Shown here in pieces: positions 25,966-42,490 of a DNA stretch of 46,900 bases. The stretch is from positions 1 to 46,900 of the forward strand of contig DUNX01000061.1 in assembly GCA_012839115.1 (NCBI GenBank). The letters run 5' to 3'. Position 1 is the first letter of the stretch; every line of letters begins with the position of its first letter. Origin of the DNA: Bacillota bacterium (lineage in GTDB: Bacteria > Bacillota > UBA4882 > UBA10575). The notes beneath the pieces are model-generated. The model worked only from the letters and a program-made list of their open reading frames with translations. It searched no databases and was not told the origin of the DNA. A program made the translations under genes and the position numbers.

Positions 25966-28071
25966 ATGATGAGAAACAGGATCAGGATTTTCTGCTGGCG
26001 GCTTTTTTTTCTCCTTGCCGGAGCGCTCCTGGTCTTTCTCTGCCTGCCGCCGGGCGCTCCCAAGCAACCCCTTACCACCCGGGTCTTAAGTGACCAGGGC
26101 GAGGTGATCGCCGCCCTCTACAAGGAGCACCGGGAGCCGGCGGTTCTCCAGGAGATCCCGGATTTTCTCTGCCGGGCGGTACTGGCTGTTGAAGACCACC
26201 GTTTTTATGAACACAGTGGTTTTAGCCCAGTTAGCTTTTTCCGTGCCGTCTATCATAATCTCTTTATCCGCCGGGGGCTGCAGGGAGGCAGCACCATCAC
26301 CCAACAATTGGCAAAGACCGGTTATCTCTATGCCAAAAGATCCATGGTGCGCAAGGCGAAAGAGGTTATTTATGCCTTCCGCCTGGAACTACACTACACT
26401 AAAGAGCAGATCCTGGAGATGTACCTCAACCAGATCTATTTTGGTCACGGCGCCTACGGGGTGAAGACCGCCGCCCAAACCTATTTTGGCCGGGAACTGG
26501 CAGAACTGAACCGGGCGGAAATGGCCCTCCTGGCCGGACTCCCCAAAGGACCGGCCCTCTACTCTCCTTATCTCCACCGGCAAGCCGCAGAGGACAGGAT
26601 AAAAGTGGTTCTCCAGCGGATGGAAACCGCCGGGTACCTGACGACCGGGGAAAAGGTAGAGATCCTCAAGGAAGGCCTCCGCCTTCCCGGTCTGGCGCGC
26701 CAACCCAGGCAAGCCCGGTATTTTCTCGACTTTGCCTTGGAGGAAACCGCCCGGATCCTCCGGGTCGACCGGGACCGGCTCAGCACCATGGGCTTGACCA
26801 TTGAAACCACCCTTTCCCGCCGGTGCCAGCAGGCGGCGGAAAAAGCCCTAAAAAACGGCTTGGCTCCTTACCAAAAGGCCGGTCAGCCGCAGGGCGCCTT
26901 GATCGCGGTTAACCCCAGGACCGGGGCGATCAAGGCCTTGACCGGGGGAACTTCTTATACCCAAACCTCCTTTAACCGGGCAATCCATGCCCGGCGCCAG
27001 CCGGGCTCAGCCTTTAAGCCCTTTGTTTATCTGGCGGCCCTGGAGGCCGGTTACACCCTGGCTTCCAACATGCCTTGCCAGCCGTCCACCTGGGAAAGCC
27101 CCACCGGGATCTACGAGCCGGTAGACTACGGCGCCGAACCGTACCACCACCGGGAACTGAGTCTCAGAGAAGCGCTGGCCGTATCCTGCAATATCACTGC
27201 GGTCTCGCTTCACCATGAACTGAAGATGACGCCTGTGATCACCATGGCCCGCCGGCTTGGGATCTCTTCCCCCCTGCCTTCCCACATCTCACTGGCTTTA
27301 GGCACGGCGGAAATCACCCCGCTGGAGTTACTCACCGCCTATCTTCCCCTGGCCAACGGCGGGCGGGCGGTTACACCCTGGGCGGTAAAGGCCGTATACG
27401 ACCGGTCCGGAAGACTCCTCTGGCAACGCCGGTCCTATTCACGGCAGGTACTCGACCCGCGCCTGGCCTTTCTTCTCACCTCAGCCCTGCAAGACACTTT
27501 AAAGCCCGGCGGGACCGCTGCCGGAGCCGGTAGGAAACTGCAACACCCGGCAGCCGGCAAAACCGGCACCACCCAAGAAAACCGGGACGCCTGGTTCGCC
27601 GGTTACACCCCCCAACTGGCGGCTGTTGTCTATATCGGCCATGACCGTAACCATCCCCTGCCGGGAGGCGGTGGGAAACTGGCGGCCCCGGTCTGGGTGG
27701 ATTTTATCAACACGGCATTGGCTGGAGAAACCAGCTCCAGGTTCCCGGTCCCCCCGGGAATCGTCGCCCGCCCAATCTGCCGGGAAACCGGGTTTTTAGC
27801 CACTCCGGCTTGTCCACAAAAAAAAGAGTACTTTCGGGTCGGGCATGACCCGGTACTCTACTGTTCCAAACACCGTTATCTCAAACTTCAGATTTGCCGT
27901 GCCAGCGGACTACTCCTGGGACCGTACTGCCGGGAGGCGGAAGAAAAGGAATTCCGGTGGGGAGAACAACCGCGCAGCCAGTGTGAAAAATGCCGGCCTC
28001 CCCGTACCCTTTGGGAACTCCTTTTTAAAAACGGTCATCCACAATCTGATCCGCCGGTCCCGGCAGAATAA
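25966..28071 (+). CDS. Class A penicillin-binding protein (transglycosylase/transpeptidase)
   Basis: This 701-residue bifunctional cell wall enzyme has a short cytoplasmic part, one membrane helix (residues 9-28), a GT51 glycosyltransferase domain and a transpeptidase domain. The GT51 domain shows AVEDHRFYEHSG with the catalytic Glu and GGSTITQQLAK. The transpeptidase shows SAFK in GSAFKPF, SCN, and KTGTT. The tail after residue 600 carries Cys-rich repeats (ICRETG..., YCSKH, ICRASG..., QCEKC) seen in clostridial-type PBPs. It follows the GH57 gene by one base. Its last 47 bases overlap the end of the convergent pilQ gene, so the PBP C-terminus and the PilQ C-terminus share DNA. Confidence 0.93.
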   Translation: MMRNRIRIFCWRLFFLLAGALLVFLCLPPGAPKQPLTTRVLSDQGEVIAALYKEHREPAVLQEIPDFLCRAVLAVEDHRFYEHSGFSPVSFFRAVYHNLFIRRGLQGGSTITQQLAKTGYLYAKRSMVRKAKEVIYAFRLELHYTKEQILEMYLNQIYFGHGAYGVKTAAQTYFGRELAELNRAEMALLAGLPKGPALYSPYLHRQAAEDRIKVVLQRMETAGYLTTGEKVEILKEGLRLPGLARQPRQARYFLDFALEETARILRVDRDRLSTMGLTIETTLSRRCQQAAEKALKNGLAPYQKAGQPQGALIAVNPRTGAIKALTGGTSYTQTSFNRAIHARRQPGSAFKPFVYLAALEAGYTLASNMPCQPSTWESPTGIYEPVDYGAEPYHHRELSLREALAVSCNITAVSLHHELKMTPVITMARRLGISSPLPSHISLALGTAEITPLELLTAYLPLANGGRAVTPWAVKAVYDRSGRLLWQRRSYSRQVLDPRLAFLLTSALQDTLKPGGTAAGAGRKLQHPAAGKTGTTQENRDAWFAGYTPQLAAVVYIGHDRNHPLPGGGGKLAAPVWVDFINTALAGETSSRFPVPPGIVARPICRETGFLATPACPQKKEYFRVGHDPVLYCSKHRYLKLQICRASGLLLGPYCREAEEKEFRWGEQPRSQCEKCRPPRTLWELLFKNGHPQSDPPVPAE

Positions 28072-29980
28072 TCATCCGCCCGGTTTTTAAGACGGTAACA
28101 TCGGTGATGCCGTTAATCTCCATCAGCAATTCTACGGTGGTCCCGTAGCGTTTCGCCAGGCGCCATATGGTTTCCCCTGCTTTCAACGGGTAAAGATGGG
28201 ATTCGGGAATGGGCAAAACCAGTTCCTGCCCGGGGTAGAGTATATCCGCGCCTTTATTTTCCGCCAGGATACTCCCGGGAGTAATCCCGTATTTTCTCCC
28301 GATCGCCGACAGTGTATCGCCGGCCTGAACTTGATAAGAAAGGGTTAAACCCTTTGCCGGTCCGGCCACTGTTTCGATTGTTTCTTGCTCTTCCACTGCT
28401 TTCACCGGGGGCAGACCACGGACCTGTTCGTCATAATACCTTCCGCCCAGTTCTTGCCAGGCTGTTTCTTCCGGTTCGCCCACTGTTTCCGGGACTTCTT
28501 GGGTTTCGGCGACTTCCTGGGTCTCAGTAACTTCCCGGATTTCAATTATTTCCAGGGTCTCGATGACTTCCCGGGTTTCGGTTTCTTCCCGGGGATCAGG
28601 AGTTTCCTTCCCCTCCGGATGGACATCCTCCGGGTGGACAATAACCAGTTCGATGGGGGCGGCTTCTCTCGTACCGACGTCCGGCCAAACCACCTCCAGA
28701 TCCACTTCTTTTACTGCCGGTTCTTTCCCGGCCCCCGGCCGGAGCCCCTCCTCTTCCTCGCGGACAACATAGGGGGTGAGGAAGATACAGATCTCCGTGT
28801 CTTCCCACGGTTCCTTAGATTGCTTTTGAAAAAGCCGTCCAAAGAAAGGCAACCGGGAAGCGAAAGGAACGGACGTTATCGTCTCTGTATCCTGCTGCAT
28901 GTTAAGGCCGGAAAGGACAAAGGTCTGCCCTTCCCGGAGACGAACCACGGAACTGGCTTCCCTCGTCCGTACCACCGGTACCTCCATACCGGTGGCGCCT
29001 ATCCGCCAGCCGACAATATTACTCACCTCAGCCCTGACCTTTACGGTTATGGTCCTTTCGTCATTGATCTGGGGCTCGACAGTCAAAAGCGTTCCGGCCT
29101 CAATATATGTGACCTCGTCTTCAATCATCCCATCCTTGATTGTGCTGGTAATAACCGGTAACCGGTCGCCAATAAAGATCTTTCCTTCTTGCCCGTCCGT
29201 GGTGGAGATATTGGGGTTGGCCAGCACACGGGCGACTCCGTTTTCTTCCATCGCGGACAGGGCTTGAGTGGTAAGCAAGTTAAAACGCAGGCTTCCATCA
29301 ATGGAGAAATGTGGAAAATCCCAGGTAACTCCTAAGTCCTTGGAAGCGGTCAGGCTGATCTCCTCCACCCGCGCTTCAATGCTGATCTGTGGCATACGGC
29401 GGTCAAGCCGGGCAATAATCTCTTCGACATTCTGGTGCTCCAAAGCATTGGCATTAATCGTAAGTTGGTTTGTACGTACGTCCAACCCGATCCGATCCTG
29501 CGGAATGACAACACCAAGGGCGGTAACGATCTCCCTGGAAACTGCATAACTTAGCGGGTAAACCCTGGTCTCCTTTGTTTCCCAGTCGGTGAAGGTCTTT
29601 TCCGTGCCGATAATAATCGTCCGGCGCGGAACAATCCACCGGTAGGAGTAACCGTAAGTCCGGGCAAGCAACTCAATGGCTTCGCCGATCTTCAAGCCGT
29701 GTTTCAGGTTGATGGTCACCAGTCCCTGAACATCCTTATCCAACAAGACATTAAGATCGCCCAGTTCGGCCAAGCTCCGGAAGACATCTCTGATATCCGC
29801 TTCAAAGATGTCAAACTGGGAAAGCAACTGCGTGTCAATTTCCGCTTCCACCCTCACCGGCTGGGCCGATAAGGACAGAAAAACGAAAGCCAACGCTGCT
29901 AGGGCCAAAGCCTTTATTTTCCCTCTCTTTTCTTTGGCTAAAGCCATCTGGTAAGGAGATCGTCCTTTCCCACAAGTCAT
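28025..29980 (-). CDS. pilQ: Type IV pilus secretin PilQ with C-terminal LysM domains
   Basis: This 651-residue secretin is predicted to form the outer-membrane pore for pili. After a signal peptide (about 20-47) come an STN/N0-type domain (50-105), a secretin N1-type domain, and the secretin domain. That domain includes VPVVRTREASSVVRLREGQ and ends near ICIFLTPYVV (about residue 410). Unusual is what follows: an acidic Glu/Thr-rich linker (about 440-515) built from hexapeptide repeats, then two LysM modules (about 547-592 and 595-640). LysM domains bind peptidoglycan. Typical PilQ proteins instead carry AMIN domains at the N-terminus, and none is visible here. The start ATG at 29980 overlaps the pilP stop (TAATG) after GGAGGCG. 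It is the last gene of the pilus operon and overlaps the convergent PBP gene. Confidence 0.88.
   Translation of the reverse strand: MTCGKGRSPYQMALAKEKRGKIKALALAALAFVFLSLSAQPVRVEAEIDTQLLSQFDIFEADIRDVFRSLAELGDLNVLLDKDVQGLVTINLKHGLKIGEAIELLARTYGYSYRWIVPRRTIIIGTEKTFTDWETKETRVYPLSYAVSREIVTALGVVIPQDRIGLDVRTNQLTINANALEHQNVEEIIARLDRRMPQISIEARVEEISLTASKDLGVTWDFPHFSIDGSLRFNLLTTQALSAMEENGVARVLANPNISTTDGQEGKIFIGDRLPVITSTIKDGMIEDEVTYIEAGTLLTVEPQINDERTITVKVRAEVSNIVGWRIGATGMEVPVVRTREASSVVRLREGQTFVLSGLNMQQDTETITSVPFASRLPFFGRLFQKQSKEPWEDTEICIFLTPYVVREEEEGLRPGAGKEPAVKEVDLEVVWPDVGTREAAPIELVIVHPEDVHPEGKETPDPREETETREVIETLEIIEIREVTETQEVAETQEVPETVGEPEETAWQELGGRYYDEQVRGLPPVKAVEEQETIETVAGPAKGLTLSYQVQAGDTLSAIGRKYGITPGSILAENKGADILYPGQELVLPIPESHLYPLKAGETIWRLAKRYGTTVELLMEINGITDVTVLKTGRMIILPGPADQIVDDRF
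28494..28601. repeat. Degenerate 18-bp repeats in the PilQ linker
   Basis: Six in-frame units of 18 bases (28494-28511 to 28584-28601) encode hexapeptides of the form REV-x-ET (for example EVTETQ, EVAETQ, EVPETV). Units differ at several bases, so they look older than the Sat repeats. Confidence 0.65.
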
Positions 29981-30591
29981 TATTTCGCCTCCTCTATCCG
30001 GCGCAATCGTAATTGCCCGCCGGGCGCCTTTAAGACCACTACGTCCTGGCGAATCTCCACCAACCGGTAATCTGTCCCGGGCAAGGTTTCTCCCAACTGT
30101 AAGATATAAGATTTATCATTGTGCCTGATAATTACCACCTGTTCCTCGGCGGTGGCGATTGTTCCCGTCCAAACCGGTTGCAGATGGACAACGGGTTTGC
30201 CGGGTTCTCCCTGGTCACCCGGGGTAGGGAGCCCCCCGGGCGCCGGCGACGATAATACTTCTCTTACAGCCGCGGCAACCTGCCCGGATGTGGCCGTCTT
30301 CTCTGCAGCTGCCGCCAGTTTTCTTCTCACATTTGCCGGCGGAAGGAAGGGATCCCGCGCCGGTTTGGCTGTGATCTCTTTTTTGTCTTCTGTCTTTTCT
30401 TCCTCAGGCAACGGCGGCGCCACCCTGGGAACCCGCCTCTCATATGCAGATTGCCGGGACGCCGGCCCGGTCGACTGCTCTTTTGTTAAAAAATCAAAAG
30501 CTACAAAGCCCAAGGCCAGTACCAGAAGAATTAATAAAACCGGGCTCGGGCCTTTTTTTGGTTTCTGTGCCGTTTTCTCCTCTCCGGCCAT
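29980..30591 (-). CDS. pilP: PilP-like pilus assembly protein
   Basis: This 203-residue protein has one N-terminal membrane helix (about residues 17-36), a Pro/Glu/Lys-rich linker, and a C-terminal beta domain (VWTGTIATAEEQVVII and RLVEIRQDVVVLKAP). That layout fits PilP, which links the PilN/PilO inner-membrane complex to the secretin. The ARDPFLPP segment resembles the DPF/RDPF motif common before the HR domain of PilP. It is not an obvious lipoprotein, unlike PilP of Proteobacteria. The start is the ATG at 30591, after GAGGGGTG; an earlier in-frame TTG inside pilO lacks support. It sits four bases after pilO and overlaps pilQ by one base. Confidence 0.7.
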   Translation of the reverse strand: MAGEEKTAQKPKKGPSPVLLILLVLALGFVAFDFLTKEQSTGPASRQSAYERRVPRVAPPLPEEEKTEDKKEITAKPARDPFLPPANVRRKLAAAAEKTATSGQVAAAVREVLSSPAPGGLPTPGDQGEPGKPVVHLQPVWTGTIATAEEQVVIIRHNDKSYILQLGETLPGTDYRLVEIRQDVVVLKAPGGQLRLRRIEEAK

Positions 30592-30595
30592 ATCG

Positions 30596-31162
30596 TCACC
30601 CCTCGGTCCTGACAATCAGGTCTAATTGGAGGTCAATATTAAGATTATATGTCCCGGGATCGTTCTGCTCGCTTACGGCCCAGGCGGTTATTTCGGCAAC
30701 CTTCATTAACCGGCCTGCCCCGTCCAGCAGAGTTAAAAAGCGATCTACTTGCTGGTACCGGCCACTGCAGGAGATCTTCCAAGAGTAGATCTGGTATGCA
30801 GGCATCCCTTCTACCGGCTGGGGTTCTTCTGTCATCTCGCAAGAGTGGATCTTGATCCCGGCGGACTTCGCCAATTGCTCGATACTGACAACCACCCGTT
30901 CCTGTTCTTCCCGGGTGGGAGTAAATCTGCGCAAGCTCTTTGCCCGTTCGTAATATCTGTTATACTCCTTTTTCAAGCGGGGCAAATCTTCCTCAACCCG
31001 TCTCCGGACCATCTCAAATTCGGATTCCCTCTCTCTGACGATAGAAGCGTATTCCTGACTACGGCCAAGATAATTAAACCCCGCGACCAGCGCCCCGCCA
31101 GTTGCCACAAGATAGATAAGCCCGCCTACAATCAGCCGGAATAAATTGCTCTCTCTTCTCAT
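30596..31162 (-). CDS. pilO: PilO-like pilus assembly protein
   Basis: This 188-residue protein has a short cytoplasmic N-terminus, one membrane helix (about residues 10-30), a coiled-coil region (about 35-80), and an alpha/beta C-terminal domain with KIHSCEMTEEP and YQQVDRFLTLLDGAGRLMKVAEI. This is the PilO layout; PilO dimerises with PilN in the periplasm. Its start codon overlaps the pilN stop by four bases (ATGA). The position between pilN and pilP supports the call, since sequence identity in this family is low. Confidence 0.8.
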   Translation of the reverse strand: MRRESNLFRLIVGGLIYLVATGGALVAGFNYLGRSQEYASIVRERESEFEMVRRRVEEDLPRLKKEYNRYYERAKSLRRFTPTREEQERVVVSIEQLAKSAGIKIHSCEMTEEPQPVEGMPAYQIYSWKISCSGRYQQVDRFLTLLDGAGRLMKVAEITAWAVSEQNDPGTYNLNIDLQLDLIVRTEG

Positions 31163-31704
31163 TGCCGGTCCCTCCCGGCCTTTATTTCTACTTCAAATTG
31201 GTAGAGGGTTATCTCGTTTCTCGTAATCTCCTGTACTTCTTTTAAGAACGAAGACTGAAAAAATGCCACACCATTGATGTTCTCCAGCAGCCGGCCCATG
31301 GCCCGGAAATTCAGCGAGTTTCCCTTGATGGTCAGACTGTCTTCGGGTGTAATCTCTACTTCTGTCAGCCAGATCTCCTGGGGTACGGTTGCGGCCAGGC
31401 TCCAAAAAAACTGTTGGTGCGGAGGGTAAAGACCGCCAATCTTCTCCACTTCCCTTTCCCACTGGCGGACCTTCTCAATGAAGGCCTCAATCCCTTCAAG
31501 CTCCGCCATGGCCGGGTCGTAAACAGCGATCTGCCCTTCAAGCGTAGCAATACGCTCGGCCAAACTATTACAGGTCAGGTAATTCCAGCCCAAAAAAACC
31601 AACGACGCCAGGAGGAAAATAATTGCGCCGGTAAGCAGGAATACGCGCCTGAGTTCGACCAGTGGCCGCGGGCGGTATTCTAACGGTAGAAGGTTAATCC
31701 TCAC
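31159..31704 (-). CDS. pilN: PilN-like pilus assembly protein
   Basis: This 181-residue protein starts with RINLLPLEYRP, matching the INLLP motif that inserts into PilM. One membrane helix (about 24-43), a coiled coil (about 50-90) and a periplasmic domain with PQEIWLTEVEITPEDSLTIKG follow. The start is a GTG eight bases after GGGAGGTG, overlapping pilM by 11 bases. PilN bridges cytoplasmic PilM and periplasmic PilO. Confidence 0.9.
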   Translation of the reverse strand: MRINLLPLEYRPRPLVELRRVFLLTGAIIFLLASLVFLGWNYLTCNSLAERIATLEGQIAVYDPAMAELEGIEAFIEKVRQWEREVEKIGGLYPPHQQFFWSLAATVPQEIWLTEVEITPEDSLTIKGNSLNFRAMGRLLENINGVAFFQSSFLKEVQEITRNEITLYQFEVEIKAGRDRQ

Positions 31705-32758
31705 TTTCAGTCACCTCCCGCATGGCCAGCCCAAGCGCAACAGTGTAAACCGGAGATTGTTCTTGAAATCTCTCAAAAAGCGCTTGCGGGCAACGGAGAC
31801 GTTCGTCGAAAACTCCAAGATCTACTTTTGTCTCCAGTTCCTTGGCTAAAAAGGCGGGGAAGTTTCTTATCAGGGCACTGCCGCCGGAAAGAATCAGTCT
31901 GGAGATGTTTTCTTCTTTATGCTGTAATTGGTAATAATCAAAAGAGCGGCGCAGTTCTAGCGCGAGGTCCTTTAACCCCTCCCTGATTCCCATATTGACC
32001 TGGTACTCCCTGCTCTCCGGAGAAAATTGCCCCGGTTCGCCAAGGGCGTCGCCAATGGTCTCTTTAGCCGTTTCCGCCCCGTCCCTTTCCAACCCTGTAT
32101 ACTTGGCCACCAGTTCGGTCAGGCGGTTTCCTCCTACCGGAAGAATCCTGGTAAAATAAGGAGTGCCGGCCTTGGCGATGACCAGATCGCTACTGCCGGC
32201 GCCAATATCCAACATGGCCACACTCTCCGCTGGTCGGCTGTATTCGATCCCTAATCCCCTCATCATGGCAAAAGGCTGAATATCTATGGCCACGGGCTGC
32301 AGCCCTGTTTCCCACAGGACATCCAGGTGGCTGTGGATGATATCATTATGGGCACAGACCAGGAGGACTTCCATCTCGCTTTCATCCTGGTCCCTGCCGA
32401 TGATCTCAAAATCAAGCGTTACTTCGTCCACAGGATAAGGGATGTAACGTTCGGCTTCCCAGCGGATGGCGTTTGCTACTTCCTCATCATCCATTAAGGG
32501 CATCTTTAGGTGACGCACCACCACAGCCTGCCCGGCAATGGCCACCACCACTCTTTTTTGCTTAATCCTGCTAGCCCGCAAAACCTCCCTGACCGCGGTG
32601 ACCACCGCCTTCCGGTCGGCCACCACACCGGCGTCTAAGGCCCCTTCGTCCAAAGACACGGCGGCAAACCTGTTTACCTGAAAGGTTTTGTCTCCCGATA
32701 CCCGGACCGCCTTTACTCCCCCGGTCCCGATATCAAGGCCCACACCCACTTTGGCCAT
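31694..32758 (-). CDS. pilM: Type IV pilus actin-like ATPase PilM
   Basis: This 354-residue protein belongs to the actin-like ATPase superfamily. It has GLDIGTGGVKAV as the phosphate-1 motif, RWEAERYIPYPVDEVTLDF typical of PilM, VAMLDIGAGSSDLVI as phosphate-2, and LSGGSALIRN as the adenosine motif. PilM forms a cytoplasmic ring that binds the N-terminus of PilN and helps organise the motors. GAGGAG precedes the ATG. It leads the pilM-N-O-P-Q group, which has three overlapping junctions and one 4-base gap; the group follows the PilX-like gene by 34 bases. Confidence 0.93.
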   Translation of the reverse strand: MAKVGVGLDIGTGGVKAVRVSGDKTFQVNRFAAVSLDEGALDAGVVADRKAVVTAVREVLRASRIKQKRVVVAIAGQAVVVRHLKMPLMDDEEVANAIRWEAERYIPYPVDEVTLDFEIIGRDQDESEMEVLLVCAHNDIIHSHLDVLWETGLQPVAIDIQPFAMMRGLGIEYSRPAESVAMLDIGAGSSDLVIAKAGTPYFTRILPVGGNRLTELVAKYTGLERDGAETAKETIGDALGEPGQFSPESREYQVNMGIREGLKDLALELRRSFDYYQLQHKEENISRLILSGGSALIRNFPAFLAKELETKVDLGVFDERLRCPQALFERFQEQSPVYTVALGLAMREVTESED

Positions 32759-32792: not shown

Positions 32793-33980
32793 TTAAAACT
32801 CCGTGGGATCGATTTCCTGCCAACTGACAACGGCAAAAATACCCTGATTTGGCCCTTTGTTGTTACTACCGCCATCTTGACCGCCAATGATAACCCCCGG
32901 GATATCAACGTTCATAGGAGCGACATGAATTTCAAATTCTTGGTTTACGTGCACTCCTTCTTTTGCCCGCAGGCGACCGACAAAACCACCCACGGCAGAA
33001 TTTAAACGAATATTCCTTCCTGAATAGAGGAAAGCCTGCGCCGTATCATTACCTGCGGCGTGCATTCCGCCGTTTATATGCAGATCACCCCCGGCAATCA
33101 GATTAAGGCTGGCATCTGGATGATTCAAAACCGCCTGTGCACTGCCGTTAAAATGAAGATTTCCTGTTGCGATGATTGTCAAGCTCTGGAACTTTCCTGA
33201 AAGAGTCACGCTTTTGTTAATATTTAAATCCCCATCGACAAAGATCATTTTGTTTTCGTATGCCGAGGGTAGTCCGTCGTTCCAGTTTTGGGGGCCCTGA
33301 AGGTAAATGAAGCCCATATCCTCTATTTCTTTTTTCTTAAAGGACTTTTCAAAAAATTCCACCTCAATTTCCTGCGGCTTTGGCGGGTTTGTCATTTTAT
33401 TAACGGTCCACCGGGGTTTTATGTTTTGGTCCTCCACTACTCCTCCGGGCCCTGTACCTACATAAATTGTTCCACTGCGGTTATAATTATCGTTAAGAAC
33501 AAGCCTTTTTTCGGCATAATAGTAATTATTGTGAATCGGGCATTTTATATCCAATTCGCCCTCCGTCGCCACCACCCACTCGTCATCAAAAGGTGGCGAT
33601 GGTAGATTTACCTCCACCTCTTCCCGCACCACCCGGGTGATATCCCCGAAACGGCCCCGGCTAGTAATCTGCAGGCGGTTGTTGGAAAGCAACTGCGTCT
33701 TCACGCTGAATTCACCGCCGCCAAATTGGTCTGTGAGCTGTTCTGTCGAAAAATTACTAAGATCTTTACCGTCCATAATATGAGCCCGCGCCTGCTGACA
33801 GACGGTTTCCAAGCCGCTCTCCGCCAGATCCAAAGCCCTGGTAGATCTCTCCTGAGCTATAGCCGACGATATACTATTCTGTTTTGTTTGCGCCAAAGAA
33901 ATAACGAGGGCGGAACCTACTGCCAAAACTAAAATAGCCAGGAGGATCGTGGAGCCTTTTTCCCTTCGCCAAATCTCCAT
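32793..33980 (-). CDS. PilX-like pilus-associated protein
   Basis: This 395-residue protein has a class-III-like N-terminus (REKGSTILLAILVLAVGSALVISLAQ), as in PilX, with Gly-Ser in place of the GF-TLIE prepilin signal. A helical neck (SAIAQERSTRALDLAESGLETV) follows. The C-terminal half has beta-rich, bactofilin-like stretches (SLTIIATGNLHFNGSA and LNLIAGGDLHINGG), suggesting a repetitive beta structure. Such proteins are accessory minor pilins. I start at the ATG at 33980, after GGAGGGGAAGA; an in-frame ATG at 34064 lies inside the preceding gene and lacks a site. Confidence 0.78.
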   Translation of the reverse strand: MEIWRREKGSTILLAILVLAVGSALVISLAQTKQNSISSAIAQERSTRALDLAESGLETVCQQARAHIMDGKDLSNFSTEQLTDQFGGGEFSVKTQLLSNNRLQITSRGRFGDITRVVREEVEVNLPSPPFDDEWVVATEGELDIKCPIHNNYYYAEKRLVLNDNYNRSGTIYVGTGPGGVVEDQNIKPRWTVNKMTNPPKPQEIEVEFFEKSFKKKEIEDMGFIYLQGPQNWNDGLPSAYENKMIFVDGDLNINKSVTLSGKFQSLTIIATGNLHFNGSAQAVLNHPDASLNLIAGGDLHINGGMHAAGNDTAQAFLYSGRNIRLNSAVGGFVGRLRAKEGVHVNQEFEIHVAPMNVDIPGVIIGGQDGGSNNKGPNQGIFAVVSWQEIDPTEF

Positions 33981-34032
33981 TTTCTTCCCCTCCTTCTTTC
34001 CTTTTAAAGAGTTCGCCCCAACACCTATAACC

Positions 34033-34542
34033 TTACTCAAACCAACCGCCGCCAACGTCTTCACTCCGGTACATCCGTGGCCGGATAGTCAAAGACTCCC
34101 CTTTAAGTTCTAAAACGATCTGGGAAAAACGGGCAGGATCATTCTGATTGCTGACACTATACGCAATTTCCCAATCGCCAACCCGGATGTTATCGATCAT
34201 GGGCACCCACGATCCTGCTGATCCCACTCGTCTTTCTAGCCGGTTATTGCTGGAATTGCGTCTATAACTGATTTGTTGATTGTTCTCATCCCTAAAGACC
34301 AATTGGTCTGTTGTGGAGTTTTTATTAAATCCCTTGGCGGAACGAAGCTCCCGGGCCATGAAGTTCAGAGCCGTCCAGACCTCCTCTTTCCCTTCCTCCT
34401 CATCCCGCAGATCCCGGTAAAAACGGGGCAGACCCGCCAGCATCCCGGTGACCGCCAAAACCAATACTGCAAGGAGGGTAAGGGCAATTAAAAGTTCGAC
34501 CAGGGTGAAACCATGCTCGTTTTTTCTCATGAATTTATTCAT
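34033..34542 (-). CDS. Minor prepilin (PilW/GspJ-like)
   Basis: This 169-residue protein has a prepilin signal (KNEHG/FTLVELLIALTLLAVLVL), to be cut after Gly and methylated at Phe. The mature Glu5 is present. The rest is a globular pseudopilin-like domain with an acidic DEEEGKEEV segment. The start at 34542 follows GGAGGTGAAATC; an earlier ATG overlaps that site. It is one of three minor pilins in a row and lies between the PilV-like and PilX-like genes, as in other minor pilin clusters. It may help begin pilus assembly. Confidence 0.85.
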   Translation of the reverse strand: MNKFMRKNEHGFTLVELLIALTLLAVLVLAVTGMLAGLPRFYRDLRDEEEGKEEVWTALNFMARELRSAKGFNKNSTTDQLVFRDENNQQISYRRNSSNNRLERRVGSAGSWVPMIDNIRVGDWEIAYSVSNQNDPARFSQIVLELKGESLTIRPRMYRSEDVGGGWFE

Positions 34543-34576
34543 GATTTCACCTCCCCCGCAGTACACAGCCGTCTAA

Positions 34577-35023
34577 TCAACGCGGACCTACCCGGATGAT
34601 CCGAACCACGGATATGTCTTTACGGCTTGTATGGGTTACGGTAATAGTAACCTCTTTGAGATATACAGTATCGCCGGTTTGCGCATTGACAACATTCCCC
34701 GCGCTGTTGATAGTTAAATCTGCTACCGTCCAGGTGATGTTGTACCCCAAATGTACATCGGTGGTATCGGCAATACTCGCAAAATCCCCCCGGGCCGCCA
34801 TATCTTTCAAGACTTCCACCTCGGAGGTGGCCACCCGTGAGGCACGATTCAAGAGCCTGGCTGTTTCGTAATCCCTCCCGGTAAACTGGAGGGCGCTGCT
34901 GAAGACCAGACCAATTACGGCCAGAAGCACCAGGCCGATCAAAACTTCGACCAGGGTAAATCCGCTCTCCGGCAGCCCAACAATCTTTCGCTTTATCATT
35001 TGCTTAAGCAAATGCTTCTTCAC
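34577..35023 (-). CDS. Minor prepilin (PilV/GspI-like)
   Basis: This 148-residue protein has a long leader (about 20 residues) and the prepilin site ESG/FTLVEVLIGLVLLAVIGLV, with Glu5 kept. The globular part shows repeated Thr/Val-rich strands. The start is taken as GTG at 35023, seven bases after AGGAGG; a TTG three bases earlier is possible. The order GspH-, PilV-, PilW- and PilX-like matches a minor pilin tip cluster. Confidence 0.85.
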   Translation of the reverse strand: MKKHLLKQMIKRKIVGLPESGFTLVEVLIGLVLLAVIGLVFSSALQFTGRDYETARLLNRASRVATSEVEVLKDMAARGDFASIADTTDVHLGYNITWTVADLTINSAGNVVNAQTGDTVYLKEVTITVTHTSRKDISVVRIIRVGPR

Positions 35024-35045
35024 CAAATCGCCTCCTGCGCGCAGA

Positions 35046-35513
35046 TCAACGGATCATCCCGGTGGCGGCATAAACAGTGAATACCCGAGTTCTCCCGGAC
35101 CCGCCGGTAATCGTCACATTTCCCCCCACCGGATTACCGCTCCCGTTATGGGGCAGGCCTTGGCTGTTGAAGTAGATTTGTTTCGCACCGCCAAAGGTTA
35201 TCGTCCAGCCGGCGTTACTTTCCGGATAGTTCCTGTTACGAAGCTGCCGTCCTGTCGCCACCACGGTAATGGTATAATCAACCCCGCTCGTAAAACTCAC
35301 TCTTATATCGGTATTCAGGTCCATCGCGCTCTTGCGGGCAAACCTGAGATCATTCAAAAGTTGGTCGGAAATAGTATCAAACCGCATTGCCCGGTAGGTA
35401 TCGGCAACACGCGGTGCGGCAATCATCCCCGCCAAGGCGATAATAGCCAAAACAAACATCAATTCCACCAGCGTAAAGCCGGCGGTTGCGTTTTCTTTTT
35501 CTTTTTTCCACAT
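35046..35513 (-). CDS. Minor prepilin (GspH/FimT-like)
   Basis: This 155-residue protein has the prepilin site TAG/FTLVELMFVLAIIALAGMIAA and a GspH/FimT-like body (DQLLNDLRFARKSAMDLNTDIRV, a segment typical of that family). The start follows GAGGAGAA. It lies just downstream of a structured gap and a probable internal promoter, which separate it from the major pilin gene. Confidence 0.87.
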   Translation of the reverse strand: MWKKEKENATAGFTLVELMFVLAIIALAGMIAAPRVADTYRAMRFDTISDQLLNDLRFARKSAMDLNTDIRVSFTSGVDYTITVVATGRQLRNRNYPESNAGWTITFGGAKQIYFNSQGLPHNGSGNPVGGNVTITGGSGRTRVFTVYAATGMIR

Positions 35514-35690: not shown

Positions 35691-36080
35691 TTAGTGGTCG
35701 CTACAGGTTACCGAATGATTTGAATTCACTGTATAAGTTCCTTTACCAGGACATTCAGGCGCACTTTTCAATAGCTGGATGCTTTGGCCCCGGGTAGTAA
35801 ATGTAGTGGAGAGAGCAGTCGCCCAATCTGATGTTGATGAAAAGCCAGAAGGATCATCCATTGTACCAGTTCCGTCATCCAAGGCCCAGTAATACAGATA
35901 CTGTTCAATCGCTGTCTCCATGGACTGCCGCGCAGCCCGGCAGGCTGAAGCCTGAGCGTCATCCCGCATGTCGATGAAACGCGGTACTGCCACCGCAGCC
36001 AGAATCCCAAGGATCAACATGACAATCAAGAGTTCAATCAGGGTAAACCCTTTTTCCTCTCTGAAAAGTCTTTTTAACAT
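35691..36080 (-). CDS. pilA: Major-pilin-like type IV prepilin
   Basis: This 129-residue prepilin has the clearest signal in the cluster: REEKG/FTLIELLIVMLILGILAAVAVPRF, with Glu5. A helical stalk (DDAQASACRAARQSMETAIEQYLYYW) and a small beta region with Cys in ECPG and near the C-terminus (TCSDH) follow. GGAGGTG precedes the ATG. It is the likely main subunit because of its compact size and its place right after pilC, but expression data would be needed. Three Cys residues are visible; two could form a disulfide. Confidence 0.88.
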   Translation of the reverse strand: MLKRLFREEKGFTLIELLIVMLILGILAAVAVPRFIDMRDDAQASACRAARQSMETAIEQYLYYWALDDGTGTMDDPSGFSSTSDWATALSTTFTTRGQSIQLLKSAPECPGKGTYTVNSNHSVTCSDH

Positions 36081-36143: not shown

Positions 36144-37376
36144 CTAAAGCGCCGCTCCGCTGCTGAGTTGCATCATGGGCATAACCACCGAGATGACGAT
36201 GACGCCAACAGCCAAACCCATAAGGATGATGACCGCCGGCTCGATCATAGCTGTCAGGCCTTCCACTGCATAGCCCGCTTCTTTCTCATAGAAGTCGGCG
36301 ATCTCATTGAGCATGGTCGAAAGTTCTCCGGTCTCCTCGCCCACAGCAATCATCTGCGTGACCATTGCCGGGTATACCCCGGTATCGGCCAGGGGACCGG
36401 CCAGCCCGCTGCCTTTTGTCAGATTTACGCGGGCTTTTGCTACAGAAGAAGCGATTACGCCGTTGGCCACCGCCCGTTCAACAATCTCCAAGCTGGTAGT
36501 GATGAGGATCCCGCTGTCGAGGAGGGTGGCCAGGAGACGGGAGAACCGGGCGACCACTGTCTTTTGGACCACCGGCCCGATAATCTTCATCCTGTAAAGC
36601 AGCCGGTCAATGGCCATTTTCCCCTGGGGGGTTTTCCGGTAAAAATTGAAGCCAACACCTGCCGCTACCGCAAGAAACAGAAACAGGTACCAATAAGCGC
36701 TCAGGAAATTGCTGATGGCAATGAGTACTTTGGTCGGGCCTGGGAGTTCGACCCCTGCTTCTGTAAACATCTCAACAAAAACCGGCATGATCAAAACCAT
36801 AACCAAAACCACGGCGATCACCGCCACCACGGCAATAACCACCGGGTAGGCAAGGGCGCCAATAATTTTCTTCCGTAGCATGAATTCACGTTCAAAATAT
36901 TCTGCCAAACGTTCCAGGACCGTTTCCAATTGCCCGCCGGTTTCCCCGGCCTCCACCATGTGGATGTAAATGGAAGGAAAGACCTTAGGAAAGCGTTCCA
37001 AGGCCTGGTGGAGAGGGTTACCGCTTTCCACATCCCGCCGGATGCCAGTGATCACCTCAGCGAGCAACGGGTTTTCCGCCTGCTCTTCCATAATCTTTAA
37101 ACAGGCGCTGAGGTTGACCCCTGCCCTGATTAAGACAGCAAACTGGCGGGTAAAAAGCAGGAGGTCTCTAAGGGCGATCCGTCTTACCCTCCCGCCGGCT
37201 CCTTTTCTTTCCGACTGCGCCCTGCTTTCACCTGCCGGTCGCAGGGAACTGATGAATAATCCCTGATCCCTAAGTTTAGCAGCGGCTTCACGGATCCCGG
37301 CCGCTTCGATCTCTCCCCTGCTGATCGCCCCGTTCCTATCTCTTACCTGGTAAACAAAGGATGGCACCTTCTCCAC
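36144..37376 (-). CDS. pilC: Type IV pilus inner-membrane platform PilC (GspF family)
   Basis: This 410-residue GspF-family protein has two T2SS-F domains (about 70-195 and 270-395) and three membrane helices, including AYPVVIAVVAVIAVVLVMVL. Each half has the family motif: VEAGETGGQLETVLERLA and IAVGEETGELSTMLNEIA. PilC binds the motor ATPases and incorporates pilin. The start is a GTG after AGGAGAGG. The second domain ends near the C-terminus with PAVIILMGLAVGVIVI, as usual. Confidence 0.95.
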   Translation of the reverse strand: MEKVPSFVYQVRDRNGAISRGEIEAAGIREAAAKLRDQGLFISSLRPAGESRAQSERKGAGGRVRRIALRDLLLFTRQFAVLIRAGVNLSACLKIMEEQAENPLLAEVITGIRRDVESGNPLHQALERFPKVFPSIYIHMVEAGETGGQLETVLERLAEYFEREFMLRKKIIGALAYPVVIAVVAVIAVVLVMVLIMPVFVEMFTEAGVELPGPTKVLIAISNFLSAYWYLFLFLAVAAGVGFNFYRKTPQGKMAIDRLLYRMKIIGPVVQKTVVARFSRLLATLLDSGILITTSLEIVERAVANGVIASSVAKARVNLTKGSGLAGPLADTGVYPAMVTQMIAVGEETGELSTMLNEIADFYEKEAGYAVEGLTAMIEPAVIILMGLAVGVIVISVVMPMMQLSSGAAL

Positions 37377-37396: not shown

Positions 37397-38455
37397 TTAA
37401 AACTCAACCATACGCTTAAATTCTTCCGGATCGGAGGCCCGCAGGAGCGCCTCCTGGATCGTAATCTTCCGTTGCCGGTAAAGGTCCCGGAGAGAACTGT
37501 CCATGGTCTGCATCCCCAATTTCCCGCCGGTCTGCATCACCGTGGGCAGCTGGTAGGTCTTGCCCTCCCGGATAATATTCCGTACCGCGCTGGTGGCCAC
37601 CAAAACCTCACAGGCCAATACCCGGCCCGGTATGTCGGCTCTGGGTAACAGTTGCTGCGAGACAATCCCCTGCAGGGTCAGGGAAAGCTGGATCCGGATC
37701 TGCGCCTGCTGGTGGGGGGGGAAGACATCAATAATCCGGTCGACGGTTTGTGTGGCGTCGTTCGTATGTAAAGTGGCAAAGACAAGGTGACCGGTTTCCG
37801 CCGCTGTCAAGGCCGTCTGGATCGTCTCGAAATCCCGCATCTCTCCCACCAGGATGACGTCGGGGTCCTCCCGGAGCGCCGCCCGGAGGGCCCCGGGAAA
37901 GGATGCCGTATCCGTGCCGATCTCCCGCTGGTTGACGAGGCTCCTCCCATGGTGATGGAGATACTCGATGGGATCCTCCAAGGTGATAATATGGCAACTC
38001 CTGTTGGTATTGATAATATCAATCAACGACGCCAAGGTGGTACTCTTCCCGCTCCCGGTAGGTCCGGTAATCAGCACCATCCCCCTGTTTTTCTCGGTAA
38101 AATCCCTGACTACCTCCGGCAAGCCCAGCCGCTCAAAGGAGGGAATTTCATGGGGGATCAACCGCATAACCGCGGAAACCGTGCTCCGCTGGTTAAAAAC
38201 ATTCACCCGGAACCGCCCCAAACCCGGCAATCCGTAAGAAAAATCCACCTGGCCGTTGCGGTCCAGTTCCGCCTTTCTCTCAGCGGTAAGCGCCGGTTCC
38301 AGGAGGTTTGGGATCGTCTCCTTTGTTAATACCGGCTGGCCTTCAATGAAGGTCAACTCCCCGTTGATCCTGAGAACCGGTGGCCGCCCGGTTGTCAGGT
38401 GTAAGTCGGAAGCTCCTTTTTCCACAGCTATGCGCAGCAGATCGGCAAGCTCCAA
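37397..38455 (-). CDS. pilT: Type IV pilus retraction ATPase PilT
   Basis: This 352-residue hexameric ATPase drives pilus disassembly and twitching. It starts with ELADLLRIAVEKGASDLHL, the family's first helix. Walker A is GPTGSGKSTTLASL, the Asp box is IITLEDPIEY, Walker B is DVILVGEMRD, and the His box is GHLVFATLHTNDA. The PilT-type AIRNLIRE-like helix is seen as AVRNIIREGKTYQL. The start is a TTG at 38455, seven bases after GAGGAGGGG; an open frame upstream overlaps pilB without support. It follows pilB by 16 bases. Confidence 0.95.
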   Translation of the reverse strand: MELADLLRIAVEKGASDLHLTTGRPPVLRINGELTFIEGQPVLTKETIPNLLEPALTAERKAELDRNGQVDFSYGLPGLGRFRVNVFNQRSTVSAVMRLIPHEIPSFERLGLPEVVRDFTEKNRGMVLITGPTGSGKSTTLASLIDIINTNRSCHIITLEDPIEYLHHHGRSLVNQREIGTDTASFPGALRAALREDPDVILVGEMRDFETIQTALTAAETGHLVFATLHTNDATQTVDRIIDVFPPHQQAQIRIQLSLTLQGIVSQQLLPRADIPGRVLACEVLVATSAVRNIIREGKTYQLPTVMQTGGKLGMQTMDSSLRDLYRQRKITIQEALLRASDPEEFKRMVEF

Positions 38456-38471
38456 AACTGGTCCCCTCCTC

Positions 38472-40172
38472 TTACATGCTGTATGATGCCCTGACAACCT
38501 CTTCCAAGGTTGTCTTGCCCTGTAACGCCTTTAAGAGCCCGTCTTGGAAAAGGGTTTTCATCCCCGCTTTGACAGCCTCCTCTTTTATGGCGCCGGCAGG
38601 GACATCCCTGCTAATCAAGGTCCTTAGTTGCGGGTCTAATAAAAGAACTTCATGGATGGCAAGACGGCCGGTGTATCCCGTCCCGTTACACTGACGGCAA
38701 CCCTTCCCCCGGTAAAAGATTAATTGTTCCTCCGGATGATCCGGGAGGTTCTCCCGAACGCTCCGGTAAAAAGTATTCACCTGCTCCAGGGGGTACGGTT
38801 CTTTGCACCCGTCGCAAACCCCCCTGACCAACCGTTGGGCTACGACCCCAATGACGGTTGAGGCGACCAAAAAAGGTTCGATTTCCATATCAATCAGCCG
38901 TGTAATACTACTCGGCGCATCATTCGTATGCAAGGTGGAAAGTACCAGGTGCCCGGTGAGGGCGGCCTGTGTAGCGATGCGGGCGGTTTCGTTATCACGG
39001 ATCTCCCCGACCATGATGATATCCGGGTCTTGCCGCAAGAAAGAACGGAGGGCGGCGGCAAAGGTCAGCCCGGCCTTTTGGTTTACTTGTACCTGGTTGA
39101 CCCCGTGAATCTGGTACTCTACCGGGTCTTCAACGGTCATAATATTGACCTCGGGCGAGTTCAACTCATTTAAAACCGCACTTAAAGTTGTGGATTTACC
39201 ACTACCGGTCGGTCCGGTGACCAAAATAATTCCGTGGGGTTGCCGGTAAACACTCCTGAATTTTTCCAGGGTCTCCGGTAAAAAACCGAGCCTCTCCATT
39301 TTCGTGAGAACACCGCTCTTAAAAAGGATCCGCATAACGATCTTTTCCCCATGAACGGTGGGGATAGAAGAAACACGGATGTCCACCGGGATCCCTTCCA
39401 CCCGGAGTTGGATCCGCCCGTCCTGCGGCAGCCTTTTTTCGGCGATATTCATCCCGGAGATAATCTTCACCCGGGAAATAATGGCCGCCTGCGTGTTTTT
39501 TGGTGAAGTCATCACCCGGCGGAGCACCCCGTCCACCCGGTAGCGGACGGCCAGTTCCTTTTCGGAAGGCTCCAGATGAATGTCGCTGGCCCGTTCTTTT
39601 ACCGCCTGGCTGATAATGAGGTTCACCAGGCGGACAATGGGCGCGTCCTCCACCAATTCTTCGGCTTCCGGCTCTTCTTCTTTTTTTTCCTCTTCAAACT
39701 CAATATCCAGGTCTTTGAAGACCTCCGCCACAGTACCTTCGATCCCGTAATATTTGCTTAACGCCCGTTCCAAGTCTTCCTCAGTCACAATCACCGGTTG
39801 GATCTCCATATTCAACAACAGGCGGAGGTTGTCCAAGGCCACCACATCAGTGGGGTCAATCATCCCCAGGACCAAGCGGTTTCCGTTTTGTTCCACCGGG
39901 AAGACCTTGTATTTTTTCGCTATGTGTTCCGGAACTGCCACCAGGACCTCCGGGGGGATCTCTCTTTTCGCCAGGACCACATGGGGGATGCCCAACTGGA
40001 ATTCCAGGGCTTCAATAAGGTTTTGTTCGGTTATATGTCCTTTGCTAACCAAAATCCGGCCTAACCGTTCCCCGGTCCGGTTTTGTTCTTGTAAGGCTTC
40101 CTGAAGTGTTTCTGCGGTGATATATCCTGTTGCCACCAACAGGTCGCCCAGTCTTTTTTTTACCAATGCCAC
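38472..40172 (-). CDS. pilB: Type IV pilus extension ATPase PilB (GspE family)
   Basis: This 566-residue ATPase powers pilus assembly. It has an N-terminal MshEN-type (GspE N-terminal) domain with RLGDLLVATGYITAETL and RLGRILVSKGHITEQNL repeats, an N2 linker, and the ATPase core with Walker A GPTGSGKSTTLSAV, LEDPVEY-type TVEDPVEY and the LHTNDAPSS His box. A four-Cys zinc motif (CDGCKEP and CRQCNGTG) is present. MshEN domains bind cyclic di-GMP in some relatives, so regulation by that messenger is possible. The start is a GTG eight bases after GGAGG. It is the first gene of the main pilus operon. Confidence 0.95.
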   Translation of the reverse strand: MALVKKRLGDLLVATGYITAETLQEALQEQNRTGERLGRILVSKGHITEQNLIEALEFQLGIPHVVLAKREIPPEVLVAVPEHIAKKYKVFPVEQNGNRLVLGMIDPTDVVALDNLRLLLNMEIQPVIVTEEDLERALSKYYGIEGTVAEVFKDLDIEFEEEKKEEEPEAEELVEDAPIVRLVNLIISQAVKERASDIHLEPSEKELAVRYRVDGVLRRVMTSPKNTQAAIISRVKIISGMNIAEKRLPQDGRIQLRVEGIPVDIRVSSIPTVHGEKIVMRILFKSGVLTKMERLGFLPETLEKFRSVYRQPHGIILVTGPTGSGKSTTLSAVLNELNSPEVNIMTVEDPVEYQIHGVNQVQVNQKAGLTFAAALRSFLRQDPDIIMVGEIRDNETARIATQAALTGHLVLSTLHTNDAPSSITRLIDMEIEPFLVASTVIGVVAQRLVRGVCDGCKEPYPLEQVNTFYRSVRENLPDHPEEQLIFYRGKGCRQCNGTGYTGRLAIHEVLLLDPQLRTLISRDVPAGAIKEEAVKAGMKTLFQDGLLKALQGKTTLEEVVRASYSM

Positions 40173-40327: not shown

Positions 40328-42490
40328 TTATTTTTCCCACCGGACCTCCAGGCTTAACTCCCGCAGGTGGGAATCGGTCAAGGGGATGTAGGTATTTTTA
40401 TAAGCAGCGTAGACCCCTCTGGCTAACATAACTTCAACATAATTGGCGCATATGGTATTGGCGTCTGGAAGAGCACTGAATTTTGAAAACTGGTAGCAGC
40501 GGTAGTCAAATCCGGCGGAAACAGCCGGAACCGGTCCTAGCCGCAGTAAGTTAAGTTCCAGTTTGCCGGTGAGGATCGGGAAATAGATATCTTTCCTGTT
40601 TCCATTCTCAAATGAAAGGTCGAGGGAGAGGATTTTCCCTGCCGTAACCCCAAAACCTACATAGTAACCGGTTTCTGGTGTATAAACCGGGTCATCAAGC
40701 AAGGCCAGGGGTCTCCCTGGGAAACTGGGGTCACCAAGAAAGGCCAAGGCCCATAAGGTACTGAGCGTATTCATATCATAATCGCCACCGAAGTAGTTGG
40801 GGTGAAATCCTTTCCCCAGGTAACGGCCGGCTATCCGGTAACGGAAAGCGCCTGCCTTTCCCAGCACGCCGCTTTCCATCCCCCACCCGTAACGGGAAGA
40901 TTTCAGAGCAGCCGCTTCCATATAGGGCTGGAAGGCCTCTGTGACGAAAAAGCCGGCATCAATGGCCAGGCCTTGGCTGGCAAATCCCGGTAGTAAGGAC
41001 CGCAAATCCTTAATTATACTGTTATCAACAACATAGGTAAGACCCAACTGCAGGTTAAGGCGGTCAGAATTGAAAGTCTCCTCGATCCGGCCGGCATACA
41101 ACGAAGCGCTGTCGAAATCCCAAGGGTTAATGCTCCTGATATTCCAGGGGGCCAGCACCTCAACCCACAGGCCCTCGCCGATGTTTAGCCCGAAGTGGGT
41201 TCTTCTTGTGAATTTGCTGGTATAATCCCCAAGAAGCAAGCCGTATCCATAGGTCAATCCTTCTTCTATGAAATCGTAATTGAGGGAACAAACCTCATTT
41301 TCAAACCTCAACCAGTCCAGAAGGGGGCCGGTTCCCTGTCTGCCATTTATGCTCTCACCAAACTTAACTCTACCGGTGGTTTGAGCAAAGCTGAAAGGCA
41401 ACACAAGCCCGAAACTATAGTCTGAGCCGAAGACGTTATAAAACTGGGGTTTCAGCGACATTGTAGTTTGGGAGACGCCCTCCAGTCCCCTCACGGTCAT
41501 ACTCCCGCCCATCTGGTAGGCGGAACCAGAAAAGGTCTGCATTGCGGTGGATTTTTTACCCAAAAAACCCTCGCCCCGCAAAATATCCTCGCGCATTTCT
41601 GCGGTTAGACGGTGGGAAGAATAGCTTGGGATCCCGCCCCCTGTTGGCAGCAGCGCTTTTTGCCCCTGGACAACCGGGAAGAGAAGGCCGCTCTCCCCAT
41701 CCTCCATCAGCAATTCTCCTTGATAGGTAATGGCCTCTGTCCCCTTACTGGAGACGGCGACCTCGAAAGCTCTGCCATAAGCATAGAGTTCTGCGCCAGG
41801 GGTACGAATCTGGAAAAGACTGCTTCCTTCTGTAAAAACCTGGGAGGCAACAAAGAGTTGCCCGGAAACCAAATTAAGCCGGACCTCCTTACCGGTTGTC
41901 GTAATCCCTCGTTTTACGGAAACAAGGCGCAAAACCGTACCGGGCTGTACGATTATCTGCGAACCGTCAAACAACTCCAGGTTTAGCCAGGAATCGGCGG
42001 CGGCGGTCACTGTAACGCCGGCGACCAGTTTTTCTCCGGAACGCAATAACCGGGCGCCGGGTTGAATCTCTGCCTTGCCAATGACTTGGGTGACCAGAAC
42101 CGACTCGTCCTTCCGGGTGGGCGGTTCCGGCTCAATAATATAGAAAACAATAGCCTCCAGTACCTTTCCGGTTTCCGGATCAATAATCCGGATCTCCGCC
42201 AAACCGGGCGTGGCCGGAGTGATATAGACAAAGTGGCCGATCCCGTCTTTAATACGCAGCCCGGAGGTTAAAACTGCCGGATCCTTCAATCCCCCCTTGG
42301 TTACTTCGATCGTCACTGTCTTCTCTCCGGTCAGCGGCTTATTTTCCTCATCCACCAACCGGAGATTCACCGGCACTTCGGTCCTGGGCGGCATCTCCCT
42401 CATTTCGGCCGCTCCAGCCGGACCCGCTATGCCAGTAATAAAGAGCAATATCAGAAAAAACCCGCAAGTAAAAAGAGCAGTTTTTTTCAT
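40328..42490 (-). CDS. Exported FecR-domain and predicted outer-membrane beta-barrel protein
   Basis: This 720-residue protein has a clear signal peptide (basic KK, hydrophobic core, AGAAE). It continues with a beta-sandwich of Ig-like type (about 38-130; VPVNLRLVDEENKPLTGEKTV), then a FecR-like domain (about 140-260) with the GDGSQIIVQPGT-like motif (LFDGSQIIVQPGTVLRL). The last ~390 residues alternate short polar turns with amphipathic strands (for example FGLVLPFSF, YGYGLLLGDYTSKF, YYVGFGVTAG) and look like a porin-type barrel, ending in SLEVRWEK. This order (sandwich, FecR, barrel) suggests an outer-membrane protein. It lies directly upstream of pilB, with 155 bases between. Family membership was not recognised beyond FecR. 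Confidence 0.7.
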   Translation of the reverse strand: MKKTALFTCGFFLILLFITGIAGPAGAAEMREMPPRTEVPVNLRLVDEENKPLTGEKTVTIEVTKGGLKDPAVLTSGLRIKDGIGHFVYITPATPGLAEIRIIDPETGKVLEAIVFYIIEPEPPTRKDESVLVTQVIGKAEIQPGARLLRSGEKLVAGVTVTAAADSWLNLELFDGSQIIVQPGTVLRLVSVKRGITTTGKEVRLNLVSGQLFVASQVFTEGSSLFQIRTPGAELYAYGRAFEVAVSSKGTEAITYQGELLMEDGESGLLFPVVQGQKALLPTGGGIPSYSSHRLTAEMREDILRGEGFLGKKSTAMQTFSGSAYQMGGSMTVRGLEGVSQTTMSLKPQFYNVFGSDYSFGLVLPFSFAQTTGRVKFGESINGRQGTGPLLDWLRFENEVCSLNYDFIEEGLTYGYGLLLGDYTSKFTRRTHFGLNIGEGLWVEVLAPWNIRSINPWDFDSASLYAGRIEETFNSDRLNLQLGLTYVVDNSIIKDLRSLLPGFASQGLAIDAGFFVTEAFQPYMEAAALKSSRYGWGMESGVLGKAGAFRYRIAGRYLGKGFHPNYFGGDYDMNTLSTLWALAFLGDPSFPGRPLALLDDPVYTPETGYYVGFGVTAGKILSLDLSFENGNRKDIYFPILTGKLELNLLRLGPVPAVSAGFDYRCYQFSKFSALPDANTICANYVEVMLARGVYAAYKNTYIPLTDSHLRELSLEVRWEK

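Follow-up and report, generated by a model that had tools for sequence, protein, structure and literature searches.

A type IVa pilus secretin with a C-terminal pair of LysM domains in a diderm Bacillota genome, and its relatives retained without a pilus

The DNA analyzed here, referred to as the window, is a stretch of 46,900 nucleotides from a Bacillota bacterium (assembly GCA_012839115.1, contig DUNX01000061.1, positions 1 to 46,900). Its minus strand carries a gene for a type IVa pilus secretin that ends in two LysM domains, and the plus strand is closed across the same interval, 28025–29980. A secretin with two C-terminal LysM domains had been proposed from the letters alone (the original prediction), and Pfam profiles (Secretin, and LysM twice) confirmed it. 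The features are collected in Table 1.

The Secretin match of the window protein reached 131.4 bits and passed the curated cut-off of 27.5, and the lip motif VPFASRLPFFGRLF was intact within the pore domain in the alignment. Secretin_N was also above its cut-off, while the N0 match was weak (19.2 bits vs. a cut-off of 27); the N0 region aligned to residues 483–661 of PDB 3jc8. The LysM profile matched in two stretches, the best at residues 600–640, with an expectation value (E) of 8.5e-23 and 80.5 bits against a cut-off of 20.9. The closest solved relatives of the pore were the PilQ structures 3jc8, 6ve2, and 9x0w, and that of the tail was the tandem-LysM cell-wall endopeptidase 4uz2, with the fungal LysM effector 4b8v also among the matches.

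Both NCBIfam models scored the window protein below their curated cut-offs, with 155.9 bits vs. 284.35 for PilQ (TIGR02515) and 168.2 bits vs. 351.35 for GspD (TIGR02517), and both are poorly suited to this lineage. The PilQ role was therefore taken from the operon and from the alignment to PilQ structures.

The absence of an AMIN domain, as originally predicted, was upheld. No AMIN match was obtained in the window protein at E ≤ 1, which sets it apart from AMIN-type PilQ, although the same model was effective elsewhere in the genome, where it matched a 650-residue frame on contig C131. Since N0 starts directly behind the signal peptide, no space is left for such a domain. A hidden AMIN domain was excluded by this search, by the working model, and by its absence from all 26 aligned class members.

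The genes directly upstream also bore out the expected pilus context. The order is pilB, pilT, pilC, four pilins, a PilX-like gene, pilM, pilN, pilO, a pilP-like gene, and the secretin as the last gene, and this is a complete type IVa pilus operon of a diderm Bacillota genome. A LysM-secretin also terminates a pilus operon in three members of the same class (G020, G021, and G016). Omp85 proteins are encoded in the window genome and in all 29 class genomes, and an outer membrane, i.e., a site for a secretin, is thus expected; among the relatives sampled, the pore-domain matches listed were in classmates and in phylum members having Omp85.

Table 1. Coordinates, strand, and basis of the features assigned in the window.
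Feature	Position	Strand	Basis
LysM-tailed type IVa pilus secretin, PilQ role	28025–29980	minus	651-residue open frame and profile search
Sec signal peptide region, residues ~1–45, without lipobox cysteine	29846–29980	minus	Read from sequence; helix 9–35 in low-confidence model
N0 domain, residues 60–106	29663–29803	minus	PF21305 (GspD-like N0), E 0.0011, under curated cut-off; region aligns with PilQ of PDB 3jc8
Secretin_N domain, residues 138–198	29387–29569	minus	PF03958, E 7.8e-8
Secretin pore domain, residues 243–407	28760–29254	minus	PF00263, E 3.1e-38; 102 bits to PilQ 3jc8
Acidic unstructured linker, residues 411–544 (~134 residues)	28349–28750	minus	
Hexapeptide repeat ETQEVx, residues ~463–499	28485–28593	minus	18-bp period, 6.1 copies, 73% matches
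LysM 1, residues 545–590	28211–28348	minus	PF01476, two stretches; aligned to tandem LysM 4uz2
LysM 2, residues 597–640	28061–28192	minus	PF01476; most conserved part of family
pilP / T2SSC-like	29980–30615	minus	PF11356 6.8e-5 and TIGR03021 0.0036, both weak; position
pilO	30596–31162	minus	PF04350 3.5e-8
pilN	31159–31704	minus	PF05137 1.7e-11
pilM	31694–32758	minus	PF11104 6.4e-55, TIGR01175 6.8e-68
PilX-like protein of pilus operon, weak DUF7305	32793–34064	minus	
Four pilin-like genes, GFTLxE prepilin motifs	34033–34566, 34577–35026, 35046–35513, 35691–36080	minus	Read from sequence
pilC	36144–37376	minus	Read from sequence; homologues in same operon order elsewhere
pilT	37397–38497	minus	TIGR01420 496.7 bits, above cut-off
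pilB	38472–40172	minus	Read from sequence; weaker TIGR01420 match under its cut-off

Two further neighbors were noted. Upstream of pilB lies a gene for a 720-residue FecR-domain protein (40328–42490), the remainder of which resembles an outer-membrane beta-barrel by eye. At the other end, the secretin stop overlaps by 47 bases the 3′ end of a convergent gene for a class A penicillin-binding protein (25966–28071, plus strand), and the same convergent overlap was present in G001 (L041) and G002 (L040).

The state of the secretin and LysM parts in relatives was counted from several searches in a class sample of 29 genomes. The two parts lay within one open frame in 22 of the 29; in G012, G013, G019, and G028 they were interrupted by contig ends or masked bases, and in G018, G026, and G027 no such frame was found. 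Among 26 aligned members, LysM was present in 25 and AMIN in none, so the predicted occurrence of this AMIN-less order in relatives held. The sole member without LysM, the secretin of G007, comes from a different filament locus. As a separate observation, 22 of 25 class LysM-secretins terminate in Y or F, behind a conserved stretch of about 10 residues past LysM 2 (e.g., NDxY).

Outside the class, 398 genomes of the phylum were searched for Secretin and 107 matched; from the loci retrieved, 89 secretin frames were examined, including a few that belong to the class. With a home-made LysM profile, LysM tails were found on seven secretins outside the class (L080, L081, L082, L084, L086, L090, and L124), representing five other families of the phylum, and the domain order is accordingly not unique. 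Three of them (L080, L081, and L124) adjoin aroC. Pfam LysM was found in 6 of 72 further phylum secretins, and the 25 most frequent families in these 72 did not include AMIN. Beyond Bacillota, the survey covered plasmid records, of which 685 matched and none covered 80% of the query.

A secretin-domain tree of 115 rows required six changes of the LysM label, at least three of them being forced by well-supported branches. The tail was therefore gained or lost more than once, and a single origin was ruled out. Replacement of AMIN by LysM was likewise not supported: AMIN was on no secretin read in the phylum, and because the LysM-secretins themselves show none, LysM is not evidently a substitute here.

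The linker between pore and LysM domains matched its first description only in part. Its acidity (27% D/E, 9% K/R) and its hexapeptide repeat, which is short, were recovered, whereas the length is nearly twice the roughly 75 residues first given. The presence of a linker was conserved in relatives, with lengths of 50–141 residues and 10–26% D/E, but neither the repeat nor the linker sequence was conserved among them, identity to the window linker being 11–18% (group means).

Ratios of nonsynonymous to synonymous substitution (dN/dS) were calculated by the Nei–Gojobori method with our own script. For the pilus copy, values were 0.11–0.17 in the secretin domain and 0.14–0.23 in LysM 2 with the C-terminal end.

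The window genome has five secretins. Two of the paralogues, one on contig C119 and one on C58, also carry two C-terminal LysM domains. The C119 paralogue sits between aroE and comFB-aroC-aroK-aroB-aroQ, at a locus whose layout differs among relatives. The pilus operon of G059 and G029, two members of the phylum, closes with a LysM-less secretin, with aroC or aroB directly next. In G016, of the same order as the window genome, an intact pilus operon closes with a LysM-secretin, and comFB and aroC come next. In the window's family, the order is aroE, LysM-secretin, comFB, and aroC, and the pilus genes are gone there.

Outside the window's genus, PilT was absent (over cut-off) in all 13 family members and PilM in 12 of 13, the remaining one, G015, giving one weak partial match. 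The aro-locus LysM-secretin was kept in all 13, in G012 and G013 as contig-end pieces. In a careful tree, the family's aro-locus copies clustered (98/98) beside the window pilus copy (85/81), within the pilus-type clade. A separate clade (100/99) comprised the C58 type together with the aro-locus copies from family f5. Two clades imply that secretins were retained at the aro locus without adjoining pilus genes at least twice, or that an old duplication was sorted; the exact order is uncertain, given the long branches.

In six loci, comFB was directly 3′ of the aro-locus LysM-secretin (L048:6525–9740, i.e., G000:C119, and L056, L061, L059, L060, L063). This constant neighbor was identified by PF10719. 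The ComFB family is reported, in work cited in PMC13249358, to comprise cyclic-dinucleotide receptors, and regulation of the orphan secretins by a second messenger would therefore be possible.

Other secretin loci of the genome were also inspected. On C58 (L049:325–6809), the third LysM-secretin is preceded by a 1052-residue surface-like protein, which itself ends in two LysM and has CarboxypepD_reg and SdrD_B-like matches, and by two unknown secreted proteins; G002 (L055) shares this gene set, and G001 does not. A second filament system on C9 (L051:10971–16509) has an 869-residue LysM-less secretin divergent from pilB- and pilC-like genes, and several class members also have secretins of about this length.

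Identity of the f1 orphans to the window copy was 28% for the secretin domain and 66% for LysM 2; among themselves, the values were 45% and 82%. The motif VPxxxxLPxxGxLF, towards the end of the secretin domain, which we take to be the amphipathic helical loop touching the outer membrane, was missing by deletion from 10 of 11 f1 orphans, and most pilus copies, including that of the window, retained it intact. The loop contacting the outer membrane is described as the most highly conserved secretin region (PMC6532946).

For three f1 orphan pairs, dN/dS was 0.11–0.18 in the secretin domain, 0.04–0.09 in LysM 2, and 0.19–0.20 for the whole protein. The corresponding values for the orphan of the window's own genus were 0.52, 0.05, and 0.39, and the neighboring aroC yielded 0.15. 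LysM 2 was thus the strictest part of the orphans, except that LysM 1 was under equally tight constraint in two of the three f1 pairs. These low ratios place the orphan secretins under purifying selection, and frames were intact in all complete aro-locus and third LysM-secretin copies read.

Taken together, the window protein is probably a PilQ held to peptidoglycan by a periplasmic C-terminal LysM tail on a flexible linker. Its subunits would assemble into the usual ring pore in the outer membrane, each bearing the acidic linker and two LysM domains on the periplasmic side, so that a ring of 12–15 subunits would present about 24–30 LysM per pore. These domains are predicted, from homology to 4uz2, to bind peptidoglycan. 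Through this C-terminal end the pore would then be fixed or positioned in the wall, a task that falls elsewhere to N-terminal AMIN domains and to TsaP, a separate LysM protein. Wall anchoring of type IVa pilus and type II secretion system secretins through AMIN, SPOR, or LysM in trans is established (PMC10653833, PMC9239104), and the S-domain behind the secretin domain, the pilotin site, is periplasmic in solved secretins (PMC6532946, PMC9239104). Three observations weigh against this assignment: the linker evolves fast; conservation of LysM 1 among pilus copies is weak (35% identity within the group, dN/dS 0.37–0.57); and the AlphaFold2 model, built with six sequences, had a mean pLDDT (predicted local distance difference test) of only 39.4, with LysM 1 alone at 75–81.

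Several other explanations were weighed against a static anchor. It is a minority possibility that the tail chiefly sets the time or place of assembly at the septum and is no longer needed in the finished ring. The AMIN domains of Myxococcus xanthus PilQ do serve in recruitment to the septum and the poles ahead of multimerization (PMC10653833), but this role would use the same peptidoglycan binding as an anchor, and the present evidence fits both alike. Very unlikely is an outward-facing adhesin with extracellular glycans or peptidoglycan fragments as its ligands (the original prediction had also considered glycan binding at the outer surface): LysM can bind chitin-type glycans, 4b8v is among the matches, and the linker is long, yet the segment behind the secretin domain is periplasmic and binds pilotins (PMC6532946, PMC9239104), the membrane is crossed by the lip only, and LysM is retained in copies without the lip motif, which would hardly reach the surface. 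The chance that the fusion is an assembly artefact or a fused neighboring gene is negligible; although the G001 contig ends inside the linker, the one-frame order recurs across the class and at the seven loci outside it, and purifying selection acts on both halves, which refutes a separate LysM gene joined by sequencing error.

For the copies without a pilus, the sequence pattern suggests secreted proteins in which the wall-binding end matters most and membrane contact is doubtful; outer-membrane-to-wall connectors and wall-bound periplasmic rings are the candidate roles. That the aro-locus and third LysM-secretins are merely remnants in decay, left behind by a pilus operon since lost, with no functional novelty, is improbable. 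Such a history would account for the missing pilus genes, for the position of the secretin where G016 and G059 have the operon, and for the degenerate pore domain (Pfam 18–70 bits in the copies scanned vs. 131), but intact frames and the low dN/dS, for LysM 2 above all, speak against it. Our tentative proposal, held with rather less than even confidence, is that LysM-tailed secretins were retained at least twice at aroE-comFB-aroC after loss or departure of the pilus operon and may now be pilus-independent, wall-bound envelope proteins, most of those in family members lacking PilM and PilT being also without the lip motif. As a new class of secretin-derived structures, they could be rings linked to the wall or connectors between outer membrane and wall.

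These results touch two open questions, namely the means by which envelope-spanning machines attach to the wall and the way in which the outer membrane of diderm Bacillota is held. A secretin with its own C-terminal LysM indicates that an anchor is possible at the front or the back of the pore and that it has repeatedly been acquired or lost. The retention of a diverged LysM-secretin in pilus-less relatives suggests a second envelope job for such pores, and the pilus-free copies offer a natural series, from G016, with its pilus operon and LysM-secretin by aroC, to f1, with the secretin alone, for the function of a secretin without its machine.

Compared with known systems, the window protein resembles PilQ of Vibrio cholerae (6w6m), Pseudomonas aeruginosa (6ve2), and M. 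xanthus (3jc8) in its N0, Secretin_N, and Secretin pore domains, its last place in pilMNOPQ, and its wall association, but it lacks AMIN and carries tandem C-terminal LysM on a long linker. The premise that such secretins usually have AMIN was too strong, as 27 of 197 proteobacterial type IVa pilus secretins lack it (PMC7545093). Secretins in pilus loci of diderm Bacillota are known from Negativicutes and Halanaerobiales; the paper describing them (PMC5007114) has no mention of LysM, whereas LysM tails were found here in five other families of the phylum, and no description of LysM on PilQ itself was found in the open-access literature searched.

TsaP, the LysM protein that stabilizes PilQ in M. 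xanthus, provides the LysM-mediated hold on peptidoglycan proposed here, but as a separate secreted protein, whereas the window LysM domains are part of the secretin. LspD, the type II secretin of Legionella (PMC9239104), also has a peptidoglycan-binding module fused to it, in that case a SPOR domain placed N-terminally before N0. In AMIN, TsaP (PMC10653833), and SPOR systems, the anchor is thus N-terminal or on another protein, while that of the window protein would be C-terminal. Because AMIN-less PilQ and LysM wall binding in trans are both known, the window secretin represents a variation on an established machine.

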